A stretch of DNA of 64,000 nt from Berberis thunbergii (lineage: Eukaryota > Streptophyta > Magnoliopsida > Ranunculales > Berberidaceae). This document shows positions 4,085-64,000 of the stretch, piece by piece; position 1 is the first letter of the stretch; each line of letters starts with the position of its first letter. Where the stretch lies: the NCBI GenBank assembly GCA_003290165.1, contig QNQO01000520.1, forward strand, positions 62,001-126,000. Reading direction: 5' to 3'. Position numbers and translations under genes: made by a program. Below the pieces are notes generated by a model. The model was not told the DNA's origin and did not search any database. It saw nothing but the letters and a program-made list of their open reading frames with translations.

Positions 4085-4603
4085 TAATGCGTCCAAATCC
4101 AATCTCCTGGAGATCTGACCTGCAAAACAGGGTTAGATTGTCAACGATCACCATTTTGGTGGCCAAAGGCAATCCGATGCTTAAGTTAGTTAATCTGTGG
4201 GACAAAACTAAATTTGGACAGAATATAGTTTAGTTAAATTTACATACATTTTGTTGAATGATTCATTTACCTTACATAATGTCCATCATTAATTCTCCAC
4301 ATGACATAAGTATGTAAGGTGTGATAAGGGGAGACATTCTTTGCAATGGTCTCATCCTTGAGGTACGTCCTTGGGGGAGTGATTCTCGCCATGAATTGTT
4401 TCCTCTGTAATGTCTCTCTTCTCTAAGGGAAGAGATCTGTTGGGCCTGGATTCACGCTCTTGATTATTATTAAGGATCCTCTTCGGGCCTTTTTAACGAT
4501 TGGGCATGTCTTTTCGAGCCTAGATTGAAGTGCATGTACCTCGTGATAGATGACATTTGACACGTGCACGATCATGATTCGAGTCTTATTTGATGTATCA
4601 TCA
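4085..4603 (-). repeat. Tat-1 3' LTR
   Basis: 519 bp. The left end TAATGCGTCC corresponds to TGATGCGTCC in Tat-2, so the terminal TG has decayed to TA. The right end GATGTATCATCA matches the Tat-2 LTR end. The purine-rich stretch read on the minus strand just outside (4604 onward, about AACTAGGGAGAG) is a good polypurine tract. Confidence 0.8.
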
Positions 4604-6392: not shown

Positions 6393-6790
6393 CTAAACAC
6401 TCTTCGTGGTCTGACATCTTAGTCGAGCCAAAAGATTTATGAGTAGGTCAATTTGACTTATACGTCCAAACTCTTTTAAACACACTTTGTGGTCTGACAT
6501 ATTAGTCGGGGCAAAAGATTTACGAGTAAGTCATACTTATACGTCCAGACTCTTTTAAACACACTTCGTGGTCCGACATGTTAGTCGAGCCAGAAGATTA
6601 TTTGTAAATTTGATTTATACGCCAACACTCGTTTAAACACACTTCGTTGTCCGACGTGTTAGTTGAGCCAGAAGATTTACGAGTAAGTCTTACTTATACA
6701 TCCAAACTCTTTTAAACAAACTTCGTAGTCCGACATGTTAGTTGGGCCAGAAGATTTTAGGTTGAGCCTGACTTATGCGACCAGATTAAG
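6393..6790. repeat. Five-copy tandem repeat of about 78 bp in the Tat-1 spacer
   Basis: Units begin near CTCTTTTAAACACACTTCG, continue TGGTCCGACATGTTAGTCGA and end in AGAAGATTTACGAGTAAGTC. I count about five copies diverged at several positions each. They lie between the end of the antisense ORF and the 3' end of pol. The matching spacer of Tat-2 (26270-26650) has only scattered related words. Confidence 0.75.
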
Positions 6791-6984
6791 TTCACTTCAT
6801 GGTTGATCATACTAGAAATTTTATGGGTACGTCTGACTTATTTGTCTTGACTTTTTTTTAGATTGTCTCGTTGTCCGACATTTTGATCAGGCAAGAAGTT
6901 TTACAAGTAGATTTCTAGTCTGACTTTGATGTCCTGACTAGATTAGATTAAACACAAGACGAAGGGTTCCTGGAATTTGAAAGT

Positions 6985-9900
6985 TTATTGATAATACTTC
7001 TTCAAGTGTTCAACATTCCATGGTCGTTGTAGTTCACCCTTCGAATCTTCTAACCAGTATGTTCCTGATCTGTTGATTTTCACCACTTTGTATGGTCCTT
7101 CCAAGTTTGGATTTAGCTTACCCGAGCCTGGTTCTTTTGTATTGAATTGGAATTTTTTGAGCACTCAGTCACCGAACGTACGAGGCTTTACTTTTTTATT
7201 ATAGTAACTTGTCATTATTTGTTGGTAGGTTGTTGTTTTGATCGAGGATTTTTCTCATTTCTCATCAAGAAGGTCCAGTCCGACTCGTAGTGCTTCATTG
7301 TTATCCTCTGTTCAAAATTCTTCATTCTGAATGTTGGCATGTCAATTTCTACTGGTACCATTGCCTCAAATCTGTATGCTAAGGAAAATGGTGTTTCTCC
7401 GGTCGGTGTTTTTTTGTTGTTTTGTAAGCCCAGAGATGTCTGACAATTCGGACACCCACAATGCTTTGATGCTTCAAACTTCTTTTTTATTGCTTCAAGA
7501 TTGTTCTGTTAGTCACCTCTTCTAGTCTGTTCGCTTGTGGGTGGGTGAGTGCTGAGAAGTGTTGTTTGATACTTAAGTTTTCACCCAACTTTTTGCCTCT
7601 CTTGCCTTCAAATTGCTTTTCATTGTCAGTGACAATTACTCTGGGGATTCCAAATCTATATGTTATATCGTTCCAGGGAAAGTTTTCAATTTGATCTTTT
7701 TCTGATCTTTGCTAACTGCTCGACTTCTACCCATTTGGTGAAGTAATATGTTGCCACGAGGAGGAATTTCTTTTTATTGGACACTGGAAGTGGCCCTATG
7801 ATGTCCATTGGCCACGGACTACTCATCGAGATGAGGTTTTTGCCTGGCATGTGAGTGTATGGAGCAAATTGTTGACATTTGTCACAAGTACGAACAACTT
7901 CATTTGCATTGTTTGCCAGTAGTTTCCCAATGTTAAGGCTTTGTGGGCTAATGTCCTTCTTCCTAGAAAGTACCCGCATATCTCAAAGTGAATTTCTCAT
8001 AGAACATAGTCCGCATCGTCGGGTGTGAGACATCTTAGTAGCGTTCCTGTCGTAGATCTTCTATAGAGTCCATCGTTAATCAATGTGTACTGTGTTGCTC
8101 TATTCTTAAAGGCCTCCATCTTATCCGTTGGAAGTGTTCCATTTTGTGTGTATGTTAGGATTGGAGTCATTCAGTTGTTCTCCTGATCTGTTGTACATGT
8201 TTCTTGTACCTAGTTTTCCAGTATTGAGATATCATGTACTGTGACGAGTGGATTATGAGTTTCTTCAGGTCGTGATGCCTCATTGGCTAGTCTATCAATT
8301 CTGTCATTTTCCACTCTTGCGCATTGTTGAAAGGTTATTGCTTTGAAGCTTTCAATCAAATCAATTGTGTTTTGATGATAGATTTTCATTCGTGCGTGTT
8401 TAACTTGGAATTCGTCATTCAGCTGGTTGACTACCAATTTAGAGTCAACAAAAATGTTGACTTCTTTCACTCAGAGGTATTTGACCAATTATAAATCGGC
8501 TATCACAATTTTATACTCGACTTTGTTGTTTGAGGCTTTGAAAATGAATTTTATTTCCTTTTCCAACGTCACACCTTTCGCATTGTACATAATTATTCCA
8601 GCTCTACTTCCCTTTTTGTTAGATGTTCTGTTGCAGCATATCCACTAGTGAGAAGTTGATGCAGTGTTTTCTTCCACTTGACTGTTGTTCGATCGATGCT
8701 TCCCATTTTACCATTCTTTTGAATATATCTGGTTTGTGCAGTACCAATCGAAGATACGACCAGAGCGAACAACAACTTCTCCACGGATGGGTAATTAGAT
8801 TTTTTGTCCGCAAATGTCTTGATGACGTAGTAAACTGGCTTTTGTGTGCTATTTTCCTCTCGTATTAGTGTTGAACTGACTGAATGTTCGGACAATAATA
8901 AGTACAAATACAGTTTTATCCTGTTTTTGGCTTTGACAATAGTTTAGTGCTCCCATGTATGCCTTTAGGCTTTGGAAACCTTTTCACATTCCTAACTCCA
9001 TTTGAACTTTTTGTTTCTTTTCAGGATCTTGAAGAAGTGAAGGCACTTGTCTGACAACCTGGAAATGAGTCTGTTCAAGGCTACTATCCTTTTTTTTAAT
9101 CCCTTAACCCCTCCCACCCCAGATGTCACTAGCTAGGATCGACCCCATGACCTAGTGATACCATCCTTCGCTGCTCAACCACTGAGCCATCACACCTTTG
9201 GCGGCTCTATCCTACCATTGAGGTTTTGTACGCCTTTAATGTTGGTAGGCGACTGCATGTTGAGAAGTGCTTGTATCAGTTTCGATTCCTCTTTGATTGA
9301 TCATGTATCTGATGAATTTTCTTAATTCTACTCCGAACGTACATTTTTCCAGGTTTAGCTTCATTTTTTACTTTCAGAGCTGGGAGAAAACTTGTTCGAG
9401 GTCTTTGATGTGGTCATTTTTGTGCAGGCTCTTGACTAGCATGTTGTCAATGTACACCTCCATGGTCTTGCCTATCTAATATTTGAAAATCATGTTCACA
9501 AAACGTTGGTACGTGGCTCCCGCATTCTTTAGTCGGACTGACATAACTAGCAATACATCCATCTTTCTGTTATGAAAGATGTTTTCTCATGGTTGGGTGG
9601 ATGCATTATATCTGGTTGTAACCAGAGTATGCGTCCATGAAGCTTAGAAGCTCGTGTCCGAAGGTGGCGTTCACTGTCTACTCGTGGGAGTGGGCAACTA
9701 TCCTTCTGACATGCCTTATTTAGATACGTGTAGTCTACACACACCTTCCATTCTTGACCAAAACTGTGTTGTCCAACTAGTCTAGGTTTTGGAATTCCTT
9801 GATCATCCATGCATTCATTGAACAGTGCACCTCCTCGTTGATTGTTTGGTTACGCTCTTGGGCAATTGATCTTTTTTTCTGGTGGTCTGGCTTCTTATTC

Positions 9901-26659: not shown

Positions 26660-29444
26660 ATTGAAAGCAAAAGACTTTATTGATAATATATTTTCAAGTG
26701 CTCTACATTCCATGGTAAATGTATCATTTCGCCCTATTTGTTTTTCAACCAGTATTTCCTGATCTGTTGATTTTTGTTACTCGGTGTGGTCCTTCCCAGT
26801 TTGGGTACAGCTTGCCCACGCGGGGCTTTTTCATCTTGAGTTGGATTTTTCGTAACACCCAGTCTCCGACATTAAAAATTCAGGTTCACACATTCTTGTT
26901 GTAATACCCTGCCATGCGTTGTTGGTAGGCTATTGTTTTAATGGAAGTTGTTACTCGTTTTTCTTCGAGGAGATCCAGCTCGACTCTTAATGCTTCGATG
27001 TTTTCCTTGGCATGGAATTCTTTGATTCAGAATGTTGGCATTCCGATCTCCACAGGTATCATTTCTTCAAACTCGTACACGTGGCCGAAACGTGTTTCTC
27101 CTGTCGGAGTTCATTTTGTTGTTCAGCAAGCCCAAAGGACGCCAGGTAACTCGGATGTCCATAGCTTTTTCACTGCCTCGAGTCTTCTTTTGATTGCTTC
27201 CAAGATTGTCCTATTAGTGACATCGGCTTGTCCGTTTGCTTGTGCATGAGCTGGTGCGGAGAAATGTTGCTGGATATTTAGATTCTCGCATAACTACTTA
27301 ACCTTCTTGTCTTCAAATTGTCTCCCATTGTTTGTGACGATTACTCTTGGGATCCCGAATCTGCATATGATGTCTCTCCAAAAAAAATTCTCGCCTTGTG
27401 TTTCGCCTACTTTGTGAGGGGTTCTACTTCTACCCATTTGGTTAAGTAGTCTACTGCGATGAGGAGAAACTTCTTCTTATCAGACGTTGGGAGTGGTCTT
27501 ACGATGTCCATTCCCCATTGTGCTAATGGTCAGGGGCTGATCATTGGGATCAGATTTTGTCCCGGCAGATGGGTGAATGGGGTGAATTCTTGGCACTTGT
27601 CGCATTTACGAATAGTTGATTTTTGCATCTGCGACTGTTTTGCTGATGTAGTACACTGGGTTTTGCATGCTTTTTTCTTCTCGTATCAGTGTCAAACTCA
27701 CTACAAGGTTGGACATAGATAGATACAAATACAGTGTTTCTCCCGTGTTTAGTTTTGTTAGTAGCTTTGTACTTCCCATATATGCTTTATGGCTTTGAAA
27801 GGTTTTCTCGCATTCATCATTCCACTTGAATGTCTTGTTCCCCTTCAAGATCTTGAAGAAAGGCAGATACTTCTCTGGTGATCTGAAGATAAATCTATTG
27901 AGAGTTGTTATCCTTCCATTAAGATTTTGAACACCTTTTATGTTTGTCGGTCACTGCATGTTGAGAAGCATTTGTATCTGCTTTGGATCGGCTTCAATTC
28001 CTCATTGGTTGACCATGTACCCGAGGAACTTCCTTGACTCCACTCCAAAGGTGTATTTCTCCGGGTTCAGCTTCATATTATACTTTCGTAGCTAGGAGAA
28101 AACTTGTTCAAGATCCACGACATGGTCTGTTTTTCGTGAGTTTTTAACAAGCATATCGTCGATGTAAACCTCAATTGTTTTGCCGATTTGATCTTTAAAC
28201 ATCTTGTTCACTAGCCGTTGATACGTTGTTCATGCGTTCTTTAATCCGAATGGCATTACTTGATAACAATATTTCTCCCATTTCCATTATGAAAGAGGTT
28301 TTTTCTTGGTCAAGAGGGTACATTTATATTTGATTATACCTAGAGTGCGCATCCATGAAACTCAGCATTTCATGTCCAACAATTGCATCCACTATTTGAT
28401 CTATTTGTGAAAGTGGAAAGTTGTCTTTAGGGCAACCTGTATTTAGGTCGGTGTAGTCCACGCACACCCTCCATTTTTTGTTCTTCTTCTTTACTAGTAC
28501 TGTGTTTGCCAACCAATCCGTAGTGAGCTTCTCTAATAATTCATGAGCTGAGTAGTCGGTGCACTTATTCGTTTATTGCCTGATTACGCTTCGGGGCCAC
28601 CAGTCTTCTTTTTTGTCGAGCCGATTTCTTATCTAGATTTACTAGCAATTTGTGAAAGATGATGGATGGGTCTATCTCCACCATGTCCTTCATCGTCCAT
28701 GCAAAAACATCTTGGTTATCTTTCAGCAGCTGGATCAGTTCCTTGGCGAGTTCAGCGTGAATCTTTTTGATGATTCAGACGGCCTTTTTCTGCTTCGTTG
28801 TATAAGTAAACCTCGACCGTTTCTTCTTCCGGTTGTTGTCCGGTGTTGGGTCGATCTTGTAGACTAGTTGGAGCTGTATTGTCGTCCAGAGAGTCCGAAC
28901 TCTTTTCATCAAGCTGTTGTGAAGGCTCTTCTAGTCATTGCAGTAATTGCTATTTATGGAGAGTCTTTATTGCTGCAAAATGACACTCCCGGGTCGCTGG
29001 TTGGTCTCCTTTGATCCTTCCGATACCATTGTCAATATGGTACTTCAAGCATTGATGCATAGTGAAGGAAATTGCGCCCATCTTGTGTATCCACAGCCTC
29101 CCAAGTAGCATGTTATACGCAGCAGGAGCGTCGATGACAAGATAGTCCTTCAATAATACCCGCTGCTTTCCTGGCTCTCCTGCTTCGACCGGTAGTTGAA
29201 TCAAGCTCAGTAGGTGACATTGTTCCCCAGTAAAACCTACCATAGATTGATTGCTAGGTGATAGCATCTCATTAGTGAACCGCATCCTTCGAAAAGCTGT
29301 CAGGTATAAGAGGTTGGCCGAGTTGCCGGTGTCGACCAATAATCTTTTGATTTTCCATTTAGCTATCATGACCGAGATCACTAAAACATCATTGTGTGGG
29401 AAATTAACCCCATCAACATCTTCGTTTGAGAATGTTAGAGTCAT
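26660..29444 (-). pseudogene. Tat-2 pol remnant with RNase H deleted
   Basis: Right to left: protease LLVDTGNSANLLYLTAF and AYNMLLGRLWIHKMGAI (29444-28950). RT has WRVCVDYTDLNTGCPKDNFP (about 28450) and an intact catalytic box in VYIDDMLVK (about 28165). The RT connection ends at YYISKTVADAKINYS (27606). One residue later the frame reads into the integrase zinc-finger half KCDKCQEF (27590), so RNase H and the first half of the zinc finger are missing; the same interval is present in Tat-1. The integrase core has VRPLPTSDKKKFLLIAVDYL, and the GPY-like block is near 26800 (GKLYPNWEGP). Stops occur throughout. Confidence 0.8.
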
Positions 29445-36681: not shown

Positions 36682-37706
36682 ATTATTATCAACTAATAAC
36701 TATTTACCATTTTACCCCATCTTCCCCTGACACCACTGATCATATGCCTATTGATGAATGTTGCACCTTCATTGGGAAATTAAATGAAAACGTCAATTCA
36801 TTTATTATTATTAATTTTTTATTTTTTTTACTTTGACTCTATTTCTAGCATAATTTGCTCTCAGCAATCTACAATCTAATTTGATACTTTAATTTTATTT
36901 TATTTTTCTAATATTGGTAATACAATATTGTAGGATTTGTTTTCACAAGTGTTGGCTGTTTGACTTAATTTGGAGAGATTTGGAAAAGAAGTCTTAACAC
37001 ATCACTCATTGAGAAATGGGATCTAGGACATAAAATCGTTGGAATCTTGAATCTCTGTTAGGCTATAATTGGATCAGATTTGCAATTGAATCTAATGTAC
37101 AAATTCTCAAGATGAAGAATCATATCTGAACATAAAACAAGAATTGGAGGAGTTTCACTCTCCATTGCCTCTCCTTTTGGCTTGCCTTGATGATTCTCGA
37201 AATTTATTGAAAAAAAAAACTGCAAATGTCTTACATGGGCGGCACTTTTACCACTTGTTCTTCTCTCCAACACTCTCAAACAATCATATTGCTGCAACAA
37301 AAGCAGCGCATAACCTTGTCTCGCCTACCTCTCGTATGCCCTAATGAGAACAAGAGATTCTACATCGTGGATAAATCAAATAATTGAGATAAAGGATATT
37401 GTCAATGCTATACAGTTGCATCATACAAAAAACCCCACCTCCCCCATATACGTTGTACTTGGCATTGTATATATATATTTGAAATATGATTCTTCAATCT
37501 CAAGATTTTTATGTTGGAATCTCACATAAGTCTTATTATCTGATATATTGTCTTGAAATATAGCTACCTTATTTGCAGTTGAAACAAGTGTAGAACTTAG
37601 AGTGGAAAAGGACTAGTGTGATGGAGTTTTGAACTCTCCCTCACGATATATAGCTTAATGTAACTTGTGCTCAGAAGCCTTTATGACATTATAAACATCA
37701 CACTCT

Positions 37707-38422
37707 TGTATGTTTATCCTCGAAACACGCCCGAACCTAATTGATACTTGCAAGTAAAGTAAGAGTCTAGCAATTAGTAACAGTAAATAGACAAGATATA
37801 CGTGGTTCGGCAATGTGCCTACATCCACGGGACAACGACGCGCTTCTTTATTATGAAAGAGTAATCTGAGAAGTACAAACTCTTGAGAACAGTTTCCAGT
37901 TCTCTCAACTCTCAATCTGAAAGTAATCCGTTATACTCACGGATTGTACCGTTCTTCCCTACACTTTCGATACAAAGAAAAATCAGCAGATTTTCTTCAG
38001 TTTTCTGTCTTGGTAATACTCAAACCTTACCTTGAAAACTGTGATCAATGACTGCGAATAAACTCCTGTTTTCTGTCAATAAAAACAGCCCCAATATTCT
38101 GTTTTCTCTCGATAAAAACCAGCCCCAATACCCTGTTTTCTGCCTCAGAAAATATAATCAATAATCCCTGGAATAGGCTGATATTTATAGCAATCATTGC
38201 TTCCTATTTTGAGTCCTAATAGGACCTGAAAACCCATCTGTGTCCTTGTTTGAATACAAAAGAAAACATGTACGCCTGATCTGTATCTGACTTCTGAATA
38301 AGAATAGAAATCCCTATAGAATAGGGATCCTATTTTATAAGATATGTATTCTGTCACATATATAGCAATCCTATTCCATTTCAAACTCTACGGATTGAAA
38401 TTGTGAGCCACGAAATCCCACA
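37707..38422 (-). repeat. Copia 3' LTR
   Basis: 716 bp, TGTATGTTTATCC to AAATCCCACA. The purine-rich tract GCCGAGGTGGAGAT on the minus strand just outside (from 38423) is the polypurine tract. Confidence 0.92.
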
Positions 38423-42694: not shown

Positions 42695-42742
42695 ATCGTC
42701 AAACCTTGTAGACACCAACCCTGGAGCTCTGATACCACTTGT

Positions 42743-43459
42743 TGTATGTTTATCCTCGAAACACGCCCGAACCTAATTGGTACTTGCAAGTAAAAGTAAG
42801 AGTCTAGCAATTAGTAACAGTAAATAGACAAGATATACGTGGTTCGGCAATGTGCCTACATCCACGGGACAACGATGCGCTTCTTTATTATGAAAGAGTA
42901 ATCTGAGAAGTACAAACTCTTGAGAACAGTTTCCAGTTCTCTCAACTCTCAATCTGAAAGTAATCTGTTATACTCACGGATTGTACCGTTCTTCCCTACA
43001 CTTTCGATACAAAGAAAAATCAGCAGATTCTCTTCAGTTTTCTGCCTTGGTAATACTCAAACCTTACCTTGAAAACTGTGATCAATGGCTGCGAATAAAC
43101 TCCTGTTTTCTGTCAATAAAAACAGCCCCAATATTTTATTTTCTCTCGATAAAAACCAGCCCCAATACCCTGTTTTCTGCCTCAGAAAATACAATCAATA
43201 ATCCCTGGAATAGGCTGATATTTATAGCAATCATTGCTTCCTATTTTGAGTCCTAATAGGACCTGAAAACTCATATGTGTCCTTGTTTGAATACAAAAGA
43301 AAACTTGTACGCCTGATCTGTATCTGATTTCTGAATAAGAATAGAAATCCCTGTAGAATAGGGATCCTATTTTATAAGATCTGTATTCTGTCACATATAT
43401 AACAATCCTATTCCATTTCAAACTCTACGGATTGAAATTGTGAGCCACGAAATCCCACA
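42743..43459 (-). repeat. Copia 5' LTR with promoter
   Basis: 717 bp. The minus strand has CTATAAATAT at 43218-43227 (and at 38181-38190 in the other LTR), a good TATA box about 235 bp into the LTR. Confidence 0.9.
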
Positions 43460-43464
43460 CACAC

Positions 43465-45778
43465 AAGTAAAATTAGGATACAAACGGCTTGTTCTCTGAC
43501 TCTCCCATGTAAATTCTACGTTATTGGCTTTCTTAAAGGTTTCTCAAACATTAGAGTTTTTGTTCTGAACGCATCCTGCATTGAGTTTGTGTCCTTTCCA
43601 CAATTACAACAAATTTTGGATGTGAATCGATGGAACCATCTATATTATTGATATGAAAATTTTTCCTTTAATTAATAATTATATCATTTAAAAATACATG
43701 ATGAGTGAAAAATTAAGTACAAGATGGATGCTACATGAATTTGGTTTCAAATTCCTAAATTTATTTATTACAAGTACAAGTTATCGATGCTCTTAAAATT
43801 CAGTCCTTCTAGGCGTCGAGGAAAAGGCCAAGGGGTGGGTATTACCACTCATTTTTTTTTTCACGCATCTCGAGGAAAATGAGCGATCACACTCGTTTCT
43901 TCGCCCATTTAGAATTTTCCTTTCAAATTCAGAAGATGGAAAAGACTAATTGATTTGATGAATTAGTTGGATGTGATGAGTCTGATAGATATATGTTAAT
44001 TGTAAAAACTACATGAGCCGTACCTAAAATTTAAGAACAAATTGAAGTTAAAGTTAATATAACTTGCTAGGTGCCCTGCTAGGCAGATAAAGTTACTTAG
44101 CTACTGCAACTTTTTTGGTCGAAGAGAGAGCTGTTAATCAATTGAATTGGCTTTTAGGATTTTAGGCTTGGAAGGTGCGGTAGTTCATGATTATGATTTG
44201 GCCGCAATATTTGAACACCTAAAGCTCACTTCCATCAAACTAACCTTAAAAGAAGAAAGAAAATTTGTCATACTTCCTAGTACATTCTAACTGACAGCCA
44301 TTTCTAAAAGAATCTTGTCATAGAGCAATTTTTTTTTGGAGAATAATCATTCTAGTTTAGCCAGAGTAACTTTTAAAATTAGGTTATAGATATCCTAGCT
44401 GCTAGTGATGCAAATGGGTGTTCACTTCTTCAATAGAGATGTCGATTTGGCCAACAATTCATGGATCATTCATATGTTACGATGGACGGACACGAGTAGT
44501 GCTTATGTTTGGAATGGAATTGTATGTGAGATATATATGAGCTTTGCTAGGGTCGAGGGAAATGAGCGAGGAGTGGGTGTAACCACCCATCCTCCTCGAG
44601 ATGAGCACATCGCCTTGGATATGCATGCTGGCGCTCATTTTGAGGAGGATGAGTGGTTACACCCATCCCTCAGCTCCCTTTTCCTCGACTCCTAGAATTT
44701 TCGGATATATATATATATGTTGTAGGAACTGTGATAGCAATATACTATTTAGGTGACGCATATCACCCATTTTTACAAATTTATTATGAAATTTGAGCTT
44801 GTTCATAAAGGTAATATTGTATCCCATTTTACAGATTTGCAACTTGTATGCTTTTGTAGCTAGGTCAATTTTTGTAAGAAATCAGTTGTTATAAGTTGGT
44901 CCCAAAGGCAGCTTATCCAACGTGTGGTAGCAGGGCTGAGAGTTTGCTTCCTATGCCATGGTGAGTTTCTCTCTCAATTTTTTTTTTATTATTCCTGACC
45001 TCCATAAGTAACTAACGTAGAAGAGAGACCATTAATTGTCCCATATATACTTCCATTCTAAGTTAACCTAGTGTTCTGGAACATAAATTGGCCACTCAAA
45101 CCTTACGGGAACTATGCAATTAAAAATTCTTATAGGTTGGGACTTCCTACCCTTTGTCTTTTCTTGTTTTCTTCACCTTTCAAATATTTTATATAATCTA
45201 CTTTTCAGAATTTTCATTAAGATAAACAATACATGCCAAGGGATATTTGTATTCATCTAATCTCCCTCAAAACCACTATTTAATTAACATACTAAATAAC
45301 AAGATGTTAGCGGTCCCATAACATGTTGATTAAGTCGAGTGTGGTTTCACTTCAAACGAGCTTTCTCTTTTGGTTTTGTAAATTTCCCTCATCAACTTTA
45401 TTGTTTAATCCCCACGCAAACAACACTCATCACTCTCACTCACTCCCCACTTTGGAATCTCTCTTTCTTCCTTCCATCATCATTTTCTTCTATCTCACGT
45501 CTATTTAGAATATAAAATAACAAAGATAACATAAAACTACATGTGATGAAATTTTAAAGCCTGTTTTCATGACTTTCTGTTCTCTCCTCCTTTTTCTCTT
45601 CTTCTTCTACACCTTCTTTCCTTTCTTCTCGTATTATGTCATAATATTCCAAACTCCCATATAAGCTCTACTTTTATCATCATAGTTTTTTTTTCTTTTT
45701 TCTTTAAGCGACTTCATTCAACCAAACTAAGAAATATTACATTGTTGCCTGAGTGGCTGTTTGGATTAATGCTAGAAG
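43465..45778. other. Intergenic stretch with two related foldback repeats
   Basis: No gene is recognised. Two members of one foldback family sit at 43809-43912 (degenerate) and 44547-44694. The rest is AT-rich, with pyrimidine-rich text at 45380-45700 but no convincing coding frame. Confidence 0.5.
44547..44694. mobile_element. Foldback MITE, 148 bp
   Basis: Arms of about 55 bp pair across a short loop: left GGGTGTAACCACCCATCCTC, right GATGAGTGGTTACACCCATC. Outer ends are CTAGGGTCGAGGG and CCTCGACTCCTAG. A diverged relative at 43809-43912 starts CTAGGCGTCGAGG. The left inverted arm could give hairpin RNA if transcribed. Confidence 0.75.
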
Positions 45779-47760: not shown

Positions 47761-48006
47761 GAGGGGGGCTCCTGCGCACTATAGGCAGAAGGGGCTCCTG
47801 CGCATCCATCTCAGCCGTTGGATCAGAATCCAATGGCTCGTATCTAATGGGAGAAGAGAGATTTTTGGCGGGAAAATTTTTAAAAAAAATCAGGATTTCA
47901 AATTCTCTCCTCCCATTTGATATAAGCCGTTGAATTCTGATCCAACGACTGAGATGAATGCACGACTGAGATGGATGCGCAGAAGCCCCTCGCAGGAGCC
48001 CCCCTC
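47761..48006. mobile_element. Foldback MITE, 246 bp
   Basis: Ends are GAGGGGGGCTCCTGCG and CGCAGGAGCCCCCCTC, perfect 16-bp inverted repeats. Arms continue through GCGCATCCATCTCAGCCGTT against AACGACTGAGATGGATGCGC-like text, with a duplicated 15-base block in the right arm. The centre is GGCGGGAAAATTTTTAAAAA. Target duplications are unclear. Confidence 0.8.
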
Positions 48007-59996: not shown

Positions 59997-62116
59997 ATGA
60001 AAAATAACAACACAAGGATGATTAGCCTTAATGGCTCTAATTATGTGATATGAAAAACAAAAATGGAAGATATTTCATATTGCAATGATTTATATACCCA
60101 AATTGAAGGGGATAATGCCAAACCAAAGGATATGTCTAAAGATGAATGACAGAAATTAAATAGAAAAGGCCATTGGCTATATTAGACAATGGCTAGATGA
60201 TACAGTATTTCACCATGTGTCCGCTGAGACGTCTGCTCATTCTCTTTGGACTAAACTCCAGAATTTGTAAGAAAGAAAAACCGCTGCGAACAAGGCCTTC
60301 TTGATTAGAAAGCTGGTGAATCTGAAATTCAAGGAAGGTAATTCTATTGCTGAACACTTGAATGATGTGCAAAGTATAGTGAATTAGTTTTCAAACATGA
60401 AGATAGTGTTAGATGATGAAATGCAAGCATCATTACTTCTCAGCTTGTTACTAGATATTTGGGAAACGTTGGTGGTGTATGTTAGTAATTCGGAACTAAT
60501 CAATCTGCAGACACTAATCATGGAGTTGGTTATGAGTAGCTTACTCAATGAAAAGACTAGAAGGAAGTCTGCAGACACTAATCAATCCCAAGCACTTGTA
60601 ACTGAAAACAAGGGAAGAGATAAAAATAGGATATATCATGGTTATGATAAAAACTGTGATAAGTCAAGAGGGAGATCAAAGTCAAATGATAAAATGTTTA
60701 AGTGTCATTATTGTGGTAAACTAGGTCATAAGAGAAGATATTGTTTTCGTTATATAAATAATTTGAAAGAGGGAAAAGTGAAGAAAAATGATAATACAGA
60801 TGTTATCATGTTACAACTGTTGTTTCAGATGAACTCGTGGTTCTTTTGTGTGACGAAGGTGAATGTTTGCATATTGCAAACGAAGGGAGAAAATGGATTG
60901 TTGACACTGGTGCATCTTTTCACGCTACTCCAAGGAAAGATTACTTCACTACTTACAGAGCATGAAATTTTGGCAGTGTGAAGATGGATAATACTAGTTT
61001 ATCCAAGATTGTGGGAGTGGGTGATGTATGTATCAAAACTAATATGGGATGCACATTGACTTTGAAAGATGTACGTCATGTTCCTGATATTCGCCTAAAT
61101 ATGATTTCTGGACTTGCTTTGGATAAACAAAGATATATGAATTAATTTGGTAATGGTGCTTAGAAGCTTACCAAAGGTTCACTTGTTGTGGCAAAAGGCA
61201 ATGCGTGTTGCACCTTATATAAGACACAGATGAAGCTGTGTAAGGGTGGTTTGTATGCAACTAAAAGTGATACTTCTCTGAACTTGTGGCACAGGCGGCT
61301 TGCACACATGAGTGAGAAATGTATGCAGCTCTTAGCAAAGAAGAAATTGATTCCCTCCTTGAAAGGTACCCCTCCTAACCCTTGTGATCATTGTTTATTT
61401 GGTAAGCATCATAGAGTTTCATTTCATAGATCATCAAAATAAAAAAGGAAATGACAGGTATTCCATACTCCTCTGCTGTAGGGTGTTTGATGTATGCAAT
61501 GGTCTGTACGAGACTAGGTATTGCTCAAGAAGTTGGTGTTGTGAGTCAGTATCTTGATAATCTAGGAAAAGAACATTGAGATGCAGTTAAATGGATTCTG
61601 AGGTACTTGAAGGGTACTTCAAAGCTTTGTTTATGCTTTGGTAATTTGTGAGCCGCATTGGAAGGGTTCACAGATGCAGATATGGCAGGTGATCTTGACA
61701 GGAAAATGTCTACTTCAGGTTATGTTTTCACTTTTGCAGGGGGAGTTGTATATTGGCAATCTAGATTTCAATAGTGTGTTGCCTTGTCAACAACTGAAGC
61801 TAAATACATTGTCATTACTGAAGTAGGGAAGGAAATATTATGGTTGAAAAGATTACTCAAGGAGTTAGGTGTGAATCAAAATAAATATGTTGTGCATTGT
61901 GACAGTCAGAGTGTCATAGAGTTGAACAAGAATGCCACATGTCATGAGCATACCAAACATATTGATACTCGTTATCACTGGATACGTGATGTGCTTGAGA
62001 AGAATTGTTACCAACTTGAGAAGATTTACATTAGGAAAAATCCTTCTGACATGATGACCAAAGTGGTTCCTAAAGAGAAACATGAGTTTTGTATAGAGCT
62101 CATTGGAATGGCCTAA
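59997..62116 (+). pseudogene. Copia gag-pol remnant lacking most of integrase and RT
   Basis: The ATG at 59997 gives MKNNNTRMISLNGSNYVI, then a stop. The gag continues KTKMEDISYCNDLYTQIEGD and, later, DEMQASLLLSLLLDIWETLV. The zinc knuckle CHYCGKLGHKRRYC is near 60704-60745 and the protease WIVDTGASFHATPRKDYF near 60890-60945. The integrase zinc finger LWHRRLAHMSEKCMQLLAKK runs to CDHCLFGKHHRVSFHRSSK (61280-61438). The text then jumps to the RT end AVGCLMYAMVCTRLGIAQEV, RNase H GFTDADMAGDLDRKMSTSGY, STTEAKYIVITEVGKEILWL and the usual HTKHIDTRYHWIRDVL. About 1.5 kb is missing, and stops lie throughout. Confidence 0.88.
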
Positions 62117-62162
62117 TGTACTTAGGCTATGATTCTCCCCTTATGGTCTGGAGGGAGAGATT

Positions 62163-62480
62163 TGTTGGGTTGGGTCCAGCCCATCAGGGTGGACCAGGCC
62201 CTGAAGAGAAATTAATTAAATTAGGGTTGTTTGATGTTTTATAAAAGCAGAGAAAGAAAAGTACAAACCTGCATTTTTGTTTTGTGCTACGGTTACGACG
62301 TGACAGCTGCGTGCGCGTCTCAATTGTGAGAGAAGAAAGAAGGGAAGGAGGAATAGATTGTTGGAGTTTGATTGAAGACTCACAAGTGTGTTTTGGATCC
62401 ATTTCTTGTCGGATTTTGGCGCTGTTTGTTTCGGTGTATTCTTCCTTTGATTGGGAGTTGTTTGAAGCTCTTGTGAGGTA
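62163..62480 (+). repeat. 3' LTR of the deleted copia element (partial)
   Basis: It starts TGTTGGGTTGGGTCC after the purine tract. A TATA box, TTTTATAAAAGCAG, is at about 62237-62250. The right end is not a clean CA and runs into the next element near 62480. Confidence 0.65.
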
Positions 62481-62681
62481 ATTGACGCCGGGCAGAATAG
62501 CGATTATCCTGCAGGCTAGTTTCAACAAACAATTCACAGGGAAAGAACACAAGAGAATCACCCAAAAAACACAAAGAAATAACTCTAATGTTCAATTAAA
62601 TTATTCAAATCTAATTAAAGGTCTACTACAATATTGAAAAAAAACTCTATTTATACTGCTCAAATAACTTGAATAATAAGC

Positions 62682-62880
62682 GTTTATTCCTAAAAGAAAA
62701 AATAGAATCAAATACTAAAATAGCAAGCAGTCTATTCCTCAAAGAAAAAGTAAAGCATAATTCTAAAAGGAATCTGCATATTCCTAAAAGAAAAAGTAGA
62801 ATCAAATACTAAATCAACAAGCAGTTTATTCCTAAAAGAACAAGTAAAGCCTAATCCTAAAAGAAAACTAGAAAGATTCC
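62682..62880. repeat. Two-copy tandem repeat in the gypsy LTR
   Basis: Blocks starting TTATTCCTAAAAGAAAAA and TAGAATCAAATACTAAA are repeated at about 96-105 bp spacing (62682 and 62788), with minor changes. Confidence 0.65.
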
Positions 62881-62937
62881 TAATTAAATTGAAAGATTAC
62901 GAATAAGTTGTTTAGTAAATAACTTTGAGAGCAAAAT

Positions 62938-63000
62938 TAGGAACCCTAGAAACCCAAATTAGGAACCCTAGAAACTCAAATTAGGAACTCTAGAAACCCT
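62938..63000. repeat. Three-copy 22-bp tandem repeat at the pol stop
   Basis: Units of GAACCCTAGAAACCCAAATTAG type, the last diverged, end directly at the stop codon region of the minus-strand frame. Confidence 0.7.
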
Positions 63001-63122
63001 CATGCGTCAGTCGCCCCAGGTTGGAAAGAACTTGTCCTCGAGTTCACAACAGCTTCATCGAAATCCTCTAGCGGCAACCCAAGAGGAAGATCTTCTGGTA
63101 TTAGGTCAGAAAACTCTGCTAG

Positions 63123-63842
63123 CTGTTGGCGTACTGGATTGTCTTTCATTTCCCTTATATCGAGCTCCATCTGCAAACCTTGCACACACTCCTTTACTAA
63201 AATAATCAATTCCTTGACTTCATCAACCTCCCTCCTCGACTCAACAACAATAAGTGGTATGGTATGCAAAATACTTAGAAACAATTGTACAGCCTCCATG
63301 AACTTCCCATTAGTAGTGGCTCTATAACCAACCTTCAATTTTTCTTCTAGCTGGGAGAAGCTGTACACAAGTGCTAGTGGCCCCCTCACATTCGGGCTCG
63401 CCGGCGTACTCCATCCGCTCTCCACCGCAAATGAAATCATTGAAGAGGGGAAAAACACGTGTATGTATGAATGACTTCCATTGTGCAGATCAAGAAGCAT
63501 GGGCTTCAAAGGTGCAAAGTTTGTTATACCCAGTTGTCAGTTCAGCAGCTGCATCGCTGTACAACAGCCACATCGTTGTATCAAAATTACCAGCTGCTAC
63601 ATGCTCTGCAGCAATAATTGATTTTTGGATCCAGATCTGGCCTACAGGTATGCCTTGAGTCGGGTGACAAATACTGAAGAACGGGTATTCGTAGTAGCCC
63701 TTGGTGTATCAACTTCTTGTGGCATCTCTAAGTCCTCAAGGTCCCAACCTCCTTCCCCATCAGTTTCTTCGTGCACTTCACCGTCTTCAATAACAACTCC
63801 AACATCCCCATTCTGCAAACCATCTGCATCAACAATATCCAA
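63123..63842 (-). pseudogene. COPA: Captured coatomer alpha-subunit (COPA) fragment
   Basis: COPA is a subunit of the COPI coat that buds vesicles from the Golgi. The minus strand reads LDIVDADGLQNGDVGVVIED, EGGWDLEDLEMPQEVDTP and RSSVFVT, then in another frame IWIQKSIIAAEHVAAGNFDT, then LGITNFAPLKPMLLDLHNGS, SPNVRGPLALVYSFSQLEEK, LFLSILHTIPLIVVESRREV and MKDNPVRQQ. This is the stretch of about 250 residues before the C-terminal COPI_C domain, in order and with no intron visible. Two frameshifts (about 63655 and 63555) break it. It starts in frame after gag and ends in frame before the pol tail. It is a fragment in a transposon, not the host gene. Confidence 0.88.
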
Positions 63843-64000
63843 CTCTTCATCAGTGTCATACACAGACTCTCCAATCTCTTCAGTTTTGTCTACCACGTCT
63901 TCCTCAATCAGGAGATTGTTACCCTTCTGAATAGCAGGTTTCCTGCACTCAGTCGCTCTATGTCCATGTTCACCACATCTAAAACATCTAATATTTGAGT

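Follow-up and report, generated by a model that had tools for sequence, protein, structure and literature searches.

A captured coatomer alpha fragment in a dispersed, nonautonomous LTR retrotransposon family of Berberis thunbergii

The maize retroelement Bs1 is without an enzymatic region, and carries a hybrid reading frame that is fused to gag. Between its long terminal repeats (LTRs), according to the available part of PMC13317346, lie transduced segments of a plasma-membrane H+-ATPase gene and of two other host genes. A stretch of 64,000 nucleotides from the genome of Berberis thunbergii (contig QNQO01000520.1, here C520, positions 62,001 to 126,000 of the forward strand; this whole stretch is referred to as the window) contains, at its right-hand end and on its minus strand, an LTR element in which a 733-nt piece of COPA, the gene for coatomer alpha, is located between gag and the remains of pol. 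This copy (locus L009) is best read as one old member of a nonautonomous Ty3/gypsy-type family that transduced the COPA piece, probably by an RNA template switch followed by mobilization in trans; a probability of about 0.88 is assigned to that reading.

The family shares with Bs1 the presence of host coding sequence within an LTR element and the formation of a chimeric frame (features that Bs1 is stated to have in the part of PMC13317346 concerned with it). As is characteristic of a Bs1-like transducing element, the COPA segment is inserted in the sense orientation and has its source gene elsewhere in the genome, with loci L032 and L033 nearest; unlike Bs1, which took up pieces of three genes, the COPA family took up one. 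Expression of the chimera has been reported for Bs1, whereas open frames were observed for the COPA family. Among LTR-captured genes, many of those in rice are now pseudogenes under neutral evolution and more of those in sorghum are under purifying selection, at least as summarized in PMC3726574. While those elements likewise harbor coding sequence that is not of transposon origin, that set (as far as the same summary describes it) consists of annotated proteins counted in full-length elements, whereas for the COPA family the junctions, the founder, the paralogue that served as source and the modules that were lost could be established. The additional open reading frames of plant LTR retrotransposons, as presented in the available portion of PMC7264820, are a further example of extra coding sequence within such elements; compared with them, the COPA fragment is a clear transduction, in sense and between gag and a pol remnant, that is found across a dispersed family. 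The same portion of that source states that captured genes stay at one or few copies. For Veju and BARE-2, abnormal template switching between two co-packaged RNAs has been proposed (available part of PMC13317346); a comparable switch is proposed here, with the difference that the partner would have been the coding segment of a host mRNA. Among the titles listed from the open-licence PMC literature, none refers to a COPA-carrying element, and the single paper listed that mentions coatomer, PMC3286476, does so for a gene near a mosquito element.

Anatomy of the element and what it has lost

On the minus strand the window copy runs from the end of gag, with its CCHC knuckle, through COPA, a remnant of the text preceding reverse transcriptase (RT) and a remnant of integrase to the 3' LTR and a target-site duplication. 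In the features listed below, L032 and L033 are COPA loci of the same genome, L041 is a decayed relative that bears pol, and K2P denotes the Kimura two-parameter distance.

63849..64000, minus: end of gag with a CCHC zinc knuckle (Pfam zf-CCHC)
63116..63848, minus: captured COPA (coatomer alpha) fragment, 733 nt, in sense; phase is kept at the joins to both gag and the pol remnant (COPI_C; 88.9% identity to L032/L033)
63071..63115, minus: pol remnant 1, text just ahead of RT, ending in EFSDLIPEDLPLGLP (86.7% DNA identity to L041)
63000..63060, minus: pol remnant 2, C-terminal end of integrase, ending in VVNSRTSSFQPGATDA, with its stop codon within the LTR (88.5% DNA identity to the L041 integrase end and LTR start)
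63010..63019, minus: stretch resembling a purine-rich tract, directly before the 3' LTR (read by eye)
62483..63009, minus: 3' LTR, 527 nt, with its partner outside the window at locus L009 (LTR pair, K2P 0.084)
62478..62482, no strand assigned: target-site duplication at the 3' end, reading ATTAC on the minus strand and matching its 5' counterpart GTTAC, outside the window, at 4/5 bases (flank comparison)
63558..63576, minus: 19-nt insertion, in the window copy only among 20 copies read (alignment to COPA and copies)
63660..63663, minus: 1-nt deletion, site approximate, likewise in the window copy only among the 20 (same alignment)
L009 reverse complement 7008-7258 (C520 about 126742-126992), beyond the window: ~250-nt insertion with inverted termini (CTCCTGCGCACAGTGGGCTGG..), close to the end of the 5' LTR, resembling a miniature inverted-repeat transposable element (read by eye)

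Three minus-strand frames account for the central part of this order. The first, 63998-63642, matches Pfam zf-CCHC (25.4 bits) and then, without a stop, positions 18-91 of the COPI_C profile (37.2 bits), as a first-pass annotation of the window had perceived; the second, 63708-63490, matches positions 90-128 (39.8 bits), and the third, 63536-63003, matches positions 128-266 (139 bits) and continues for 40 more residues, such that the three pieces are consecutive on the profile. Solved coatomer-alpha chains also match the window frames (best E 4.1e-15). The first-pass estimate of a host coding fragment of about 720 bp was close to the 733 nt measured. That annotation further described two frameshifts followed by an in-frame gypsy tail: the 1-nt deletion and the 19-nt insertion do together restore the original phase, but both are private to the window copy and later than the capture, and the notion that they form part of the element's design was rejected on that ground. 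The tail is gypsy pol, as described, but consists of two pol pieces joined by a deletion, its halves matching two separate places in L041 with DNA identities of 87% (45 nt) and 89% (61 nt). The end of the tail also resembles an integrase C-terminus (P0047; 86% over 21 residues), a match that is weak on its own (one candidate, E 1.1). Chance is excluded as an explanation.

A search of the window with 60001-64000 detected no second copy of the LTR in it. Extension to the right, as had been proposed, revealed the rest of gag, a primer site (TTGGTATCAGAGC) and the 5' LTR, with the element ending at about position 127516 of C520. The COPA fragment sits in a complete 3-kb element, and the element's direct LTR pair, primer site and short target duplication identify it as an LTR retrotransposon. 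The primer site is presumably complementary to initiator Met tRNA. The 5' LTR starts with TA and the 3' LTR with TG; within the latter, at 62685-62869, a 91-nt unit is repeated at a distance of 94 nt with 88% identity.

The relative L041, the LTRs of which are 90.5% alike, contains gag and, after it, regions for a protease-like stretch, RT, RNase H and integrase in that order. RT (75.7 bits), RNase H (76.8) and SH3_Tf2-1, the integrase SH3 domain (60.9), score above their Pfam cut-offs, and rve (31.4 of 32.6) and protease (22.2 of 24.3) fall just under theirs. This order of pol would place the COPA family, which itself retains only two scraps of pol, in the Ty3/gypsy lineage. The gag sequences of L041 and the window copy are 81% identical, and relative to L041 the gag of the COPA family is shorter by exactly 153 nt between two near-repeats in 14/14 copies aligned (four further gag-bearing copies, L014, L016, L017 and L023, were left out of that alignment). 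COPA occupies the place of ~630 nt that hold the protease-like stretch in L041. Because the two tail pieces match L041 at 4234-4278 and 6750-6810, with the match of pol remnant 1 located 2.47 kb upstream of that of pol remnant 2, the core of RT, RNase H and integrase (2.47 kb) was lost in a separate deletion. The earlier claim that the host fragment replaced the enzymatic core is accordingly correct for the protease-like stretch, but not for RT, RNase H and integrase. The RT, RNase H and protease-like pieces of L041 have no match inside the element bounds of the 20 loci, and its integrase piece matches the tail only, in 15 of them; the COPA family is nonautonomous, with neither RT nor an integrase core in its copies.

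Core-less relatives that retain protease also exist, because at locus L011 a second remnant, located downstream and without COPA, still has the protease-like stretch, and its pre-RT text is likewise followed directly by the integrase end, although at a different join. The sequence there (reverse complement of L011, 6572-7945) is composite, in that the LTR of the COPA element runs into the protease-like part of this COPA-less, RT-less relative, which ends in an LTR of its own that pairs (94%) with a 5' LTR ahead of the COPA element. The integrase end of pol-bearing relatives is found at no fewer than 150 scored places of 7902 candidates in the genome, many of them with stops.

A dispersed family with common junctions

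The window's own 2.24-Gb assembly was searched with a 1001-nt query, and the best 40 of 3236 first-look candidates were scored (the 3236 may include places with an LTR only, and do not represent a copy count). At least 40 scored places display 85-100% identity, and each covers the COPA fragment at least in part; among the matches listed, 40/40 alignments span the 3' junction and 36/40 span the 5' junction, and hence both. Bs1, in contrast, is a low-copy element. When 20 loci were read, the 3' junction was found to be identical in all of them and the 5' junction in 18, the other two being without gag, and gag, COPA, tail and LTR were observed to travel together. The first-pass proposal to look for other copies with the same junctions thus led to a dispersed family rather than to a single event, and its comparison of the fragment with a Bs1-like transduction, here of a vesicle-coat gene, was borne out both by the anatomy and by the copies that share it. 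An in-frame deletion of 3 nt next to the 3' junction marks a subfamily of 14 of the 20 loci.

These findings bear upon two rival explanations of the structure. If, as in the refuting case named by the first-pass annotation, COPA had been inserted separately into a gypsy remnant, with gag and tail derived from different elements, the region would be a suitable setting, as it is dense in retroelement remnants and a copia remnant abuts the 3' LTR; however, identical junctions in 18/18 gag-bearing loci (and 20/20 at the 3' side), as well as LTR pairs and target duplications that lie outside the whole unit rather than around the COPA piece, speak against nested pieces, and a multicopy family refutes them, leaving that explanation a practically negligible probability. 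Alternatively, the copies might be genomic duplicates or redundant contigs of a single locus. Close pairs are indeed present: L012/L015, L016/L017 and L021/L022 are near-identical with the same 5' flank, L019/L024 are similar with flanks that differ by a base or so, and contig C8222 matches the window at 100%. Since these four pairs look like redundant contigs or duplicates, the 20 loci correspond to about 16 insertions. The loci outside such pairs, however, have different flanks and display seven different exact target duplications, and duplication of one locus is very improbable as an account of the family.

Of 17 copies in which the ends of the element were looked for, nine have exact 5-bp target duplications, comprising seven different 5-mers (CTTCC, ATTTT, CATCT, ACAAT, AAAAG, GTAAA and GTTTC), in addition to the window copy, in which 4/5 bases match (GTTAC versus ATTAC). 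The primer site is exact in 9/17 copies, the window copy included, and carries one or two changes in the other eight. LTR pairs could be measured in 14/17 copies and differ by K2P distances of 0.066-0.123, while the internal region measures 1616-1728 nt in 15 of 16 copies.

Source gene, joins and the route of capture

The COPA genes of the genome were sought with the C-terminal part that is missing from the element, and 13 of 18 candidates matched. Open frames of 472-1000 aa surround the ten best matches, the frame around the likely source, L032, being 991 aa long. When the captured fragment itself was compared with the genome's COPA loci, as had been suggested, L032 and L033 were the best matches (737 columns, 88.9% identity, 23 gap columns), and the alignment to the captured region is without intron-sized gaps. 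Because of this alignment and the long frame around L032, the captured region is judged, from genomic frames, to be part of a single exon of the source. The earlier observation that the fragment contains no introns is therefore correct but uninformative, since the source region has no intron to lose. COPA is present as two tandem genes, ~16-18 kb apart, on four contigs (C511, C8180, C1818 and C3499), and C2069 and C300 carry further copies. On C11054 there is one of the C2069 type, the frame of which is damaged, and on C7258 one of the C300 type that matches in part; these COPA loci together are L029-L040.

In a tree that included 18 copies (with L027, L028, L038 and L040 left out as truncated or distant), the copies form one clade (99/95), which joins COPA L032/L033 in the next (100/98), separate from L030/L031, L029 and the second tandem group L034-L037; in a FastTree analysis with all rows, L027 and L028 also group with the copies. 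The tree is star-like, in that inner branches among non-pair copies are shorter than 0.01 while end branches measure 0.029-0.065, and half of the LTR divergence (0.033-0.061, 14 copies) agrees with the latter. The single clade points to one origin, and the short inner branches to a burst soon after the capture. At a substitution rate of 1.3e-8 per site per year, upon which the estimate rests, that burst would be, very roughly, 2.5-4.7 million years old.

At the 5' join of the element GATGAAGAG meets TTGGATATT, where the counterparts are GGCGAAGAGTTGGATATT (L030) and GGCGAAGAGCTGG (L032) in COPA and GATGATGAAGATGGAGATG in the gag of L041, with GAAGA as common text. At the 3' join, copies that retain the three bases read CAGCAAGAGCTAGCAG followed by AGTTTTCTGACC, COPA L032 reads CAGCAAGAGCTAGCAG followed by CCTACTTC, and L041 reads CAGCAGCTTCTTGCAGAGTTTTCTGACC; the common text is GCAG, and would be longer if the true donor had CTAGCAG. 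Short common text at both joins fits the suggestion, made for the 5' join in the first-pass annotation, that template switching at microhomology is plausible. Both joins and both deletions, and thus four joins in all, keep phase, which by chance would occur about once in 81 times if they were independent, a figure that was counted after the fact and is suggestive only.

The capture can be envisaged as follows. A COPA mRNA would have been packaged together with element RNA in a particle, and reverse transcriptase would have switched from the element RNA to the COPA mRNA at short common text and then back again, with COPA replacing the protease-like stretch that lay after gag and ahead of the pre-RT text. 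RT, RNase H and most of integrase were lost in a separate deletion of 2.5 kb, and gag was shortened by another, of 153 nt, the joins leaving gag, COPA and the pol tail in a single phase. The resulting chimera would have kept the parts needed in cis (LTRs, primer site, purine tract and 5' gag region) and would have been copied by the enzymes of pol-bearing relatives in a short burst, its copies having decayed since. Alternatively, the capture may have happened at the level of DNA, with a COPA fragment built into an element copy through illegitimate repair or recombination and the family descending from that copy. No intron signature can exist where the source region is a single open frame free of intron-sized gaps, and short common text at breakpoints fits end-joining as well. 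However, COPA is in sense with both of its joins in phase, and the 153-nt gag deletion between near-repeats and the LTR-to-protease join at L011 resemble slips of reverse transcription; capture of DNA is consequently regarded as unlikely, albeit as a live alternative to the template switch.

Several observations weigh against transduction by a template switch and mobilization in trans, or complicate it. The RNA route is without direct proof, there being no intron in the source region to lose. An immediate pol-bearing partner with an identical full LTR was not found, the LTR similarity of L041 being confined to the last 130 nt, at 83%. The copy number is a lower bound only, and the list of scored matches is incomplete, as COPA genes that match the same query are absent from it. 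In 7/17 copies the target duplications are mismatched or an end was not found, partly on account of later insertions or adjoining LTR sequence; these ends and the variation among LTRs indicate that recombination or later hits have affected some copies. L014 holds an internal insertion, with an internal region of 2.8 kb (2834 nt) compared with 1.6-1.7 kb elsewhere. Apart from this, some lesions shared by non-pair copies depart from a simple picture: stops at codons 97 (L009, L010, L019 and L024), 219 (L019, L027 and L028) and 72 (L020 and L027), as well as an 11-nt frameshift deletion common to L020 and L023. The stop at codon 97 is likely to reflect a repeated C-to-T change, because that codon is CGA in the source gene.

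Reading frame, neighboring sequence and significance

Uninterrupted frames from knuckle through COPA to tail persist in L012/L015 (378 and 383 aa) and in L018 (339 aa), representing two insertions; the frame of L012 matches COPI_C at 275 bits, and L010 is open from the gag domain via the knuckle into COPA. Such frames would be expected if a fusion of Gag with alpha-COP aided the element, for example by bringing particles to membranes of the endoplasmic reticulum (ER) or Golgi, and selection kept the frame until the burst. The four in-phase joins, and the fact that nearly all frameshifts are private or common to close pairs, agree with that account. The inner branches, however, are so short that an open frame is expected even without selection, there having been too little time along them for decay, and none of the 20 copies read is open from the start of gag through COPA to the tail. 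Substitutions were counted in 17 rows (one each of L012/L015, L016/L017 and L021/L022 having been dropped, and both L019 and L024 kept). Nonsynonymous to synonymous transitions number 72:29 when common to several copies and 88:43 when private (456:244 expected), and transversions number 21:2 and 123:12, respectively (1115:255 expected); selection on the COPA protein sequence was sought in these counts and not found, there being no sign of protein-level constraint. Private transversions hold more nonsynonymous changes than expected (P 0.003), and 11 of the 12 derived changes present in at least nine copies are nonsynonymous (P 0.04 under one null and 0.18 under another). Neither excess is taken as adaptation, and alignment near indels and the truncated copies L027 and L028 may add noise. 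A selected fusion is thus an improbable explanation of the family; the chimera was probably translatable at the time of the burst, with no sign of having been kept for its protein sequence.

The same fusion was also sought in a protein collection, among proteins 0.55-1.75 times the length of the query. With ORF3 as query, 46 of 96 candidates were hits, and with the uninterrupted open reading frame of L012, 83 of 4746; every hit in both sets contains COPI_C, no fusion was found among them, and each of the L012 hits extends over at most 70% of the query. In the ORF3 search, one protein with a seeming coverage of 98% (P0001) was set aside as plain COPA with a chance match to the tail. A scan of viral contigs confirmed nothing.

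The remainder of the window contains other repeats. A copia-type remnant on the opposite strand (60388-62140, plus), with most of its pol missing, displays a weak copia gag match (15.8 bits, under the cut-off), a GAG-pre-integrase match (64.9 bits) and an RNase-H-like end that was read by eye and has no Pfam match; LTR-like sequence seems to continue from it to about 62478, where the COPA element is located. Direct repeats of ~718 nt at 37706-38422 and 42742-43459, 97.6% identical and 4.3 kb apart, are probably the LTRs of a younger element. At 28197-28512 (minus), sequence that is distantly similar (34-40% identity) to the L041 RT piece belongs to another, different retroelement, and two sequences of ~150-160 nt each, at 44547-44695 and 47802-47961, match their own reverse complements (78% and 75%) as long imperfect palindromes.

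An LTR element that has transduced host sequence is of a known kind, and its presence in many copies is unusual; amplification to this extent runs counter to the statement of one or few copies in the available portion of PMC7264820. The COPA family represents a legible case of gene capture, in which one genome reveals the source paralogue, breakpoints, lost modules, single founder and relative age of the burst. The C-terminal domain of alpha-COP, part of which was captured, is the region that binds epsilon-COP, and there is a small chance that the Gag-alpha-COP fusion was not a passenger, but may have steered particles or RNA to ER or Golgi sites and so helped the burst, and that the COPA-like copies may feed small RNAs against COPA. 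As part of a housekeeping gene is present in this genome in many diverged copies, the family could show whether copies borne by an element silence or otherwise affect their source.
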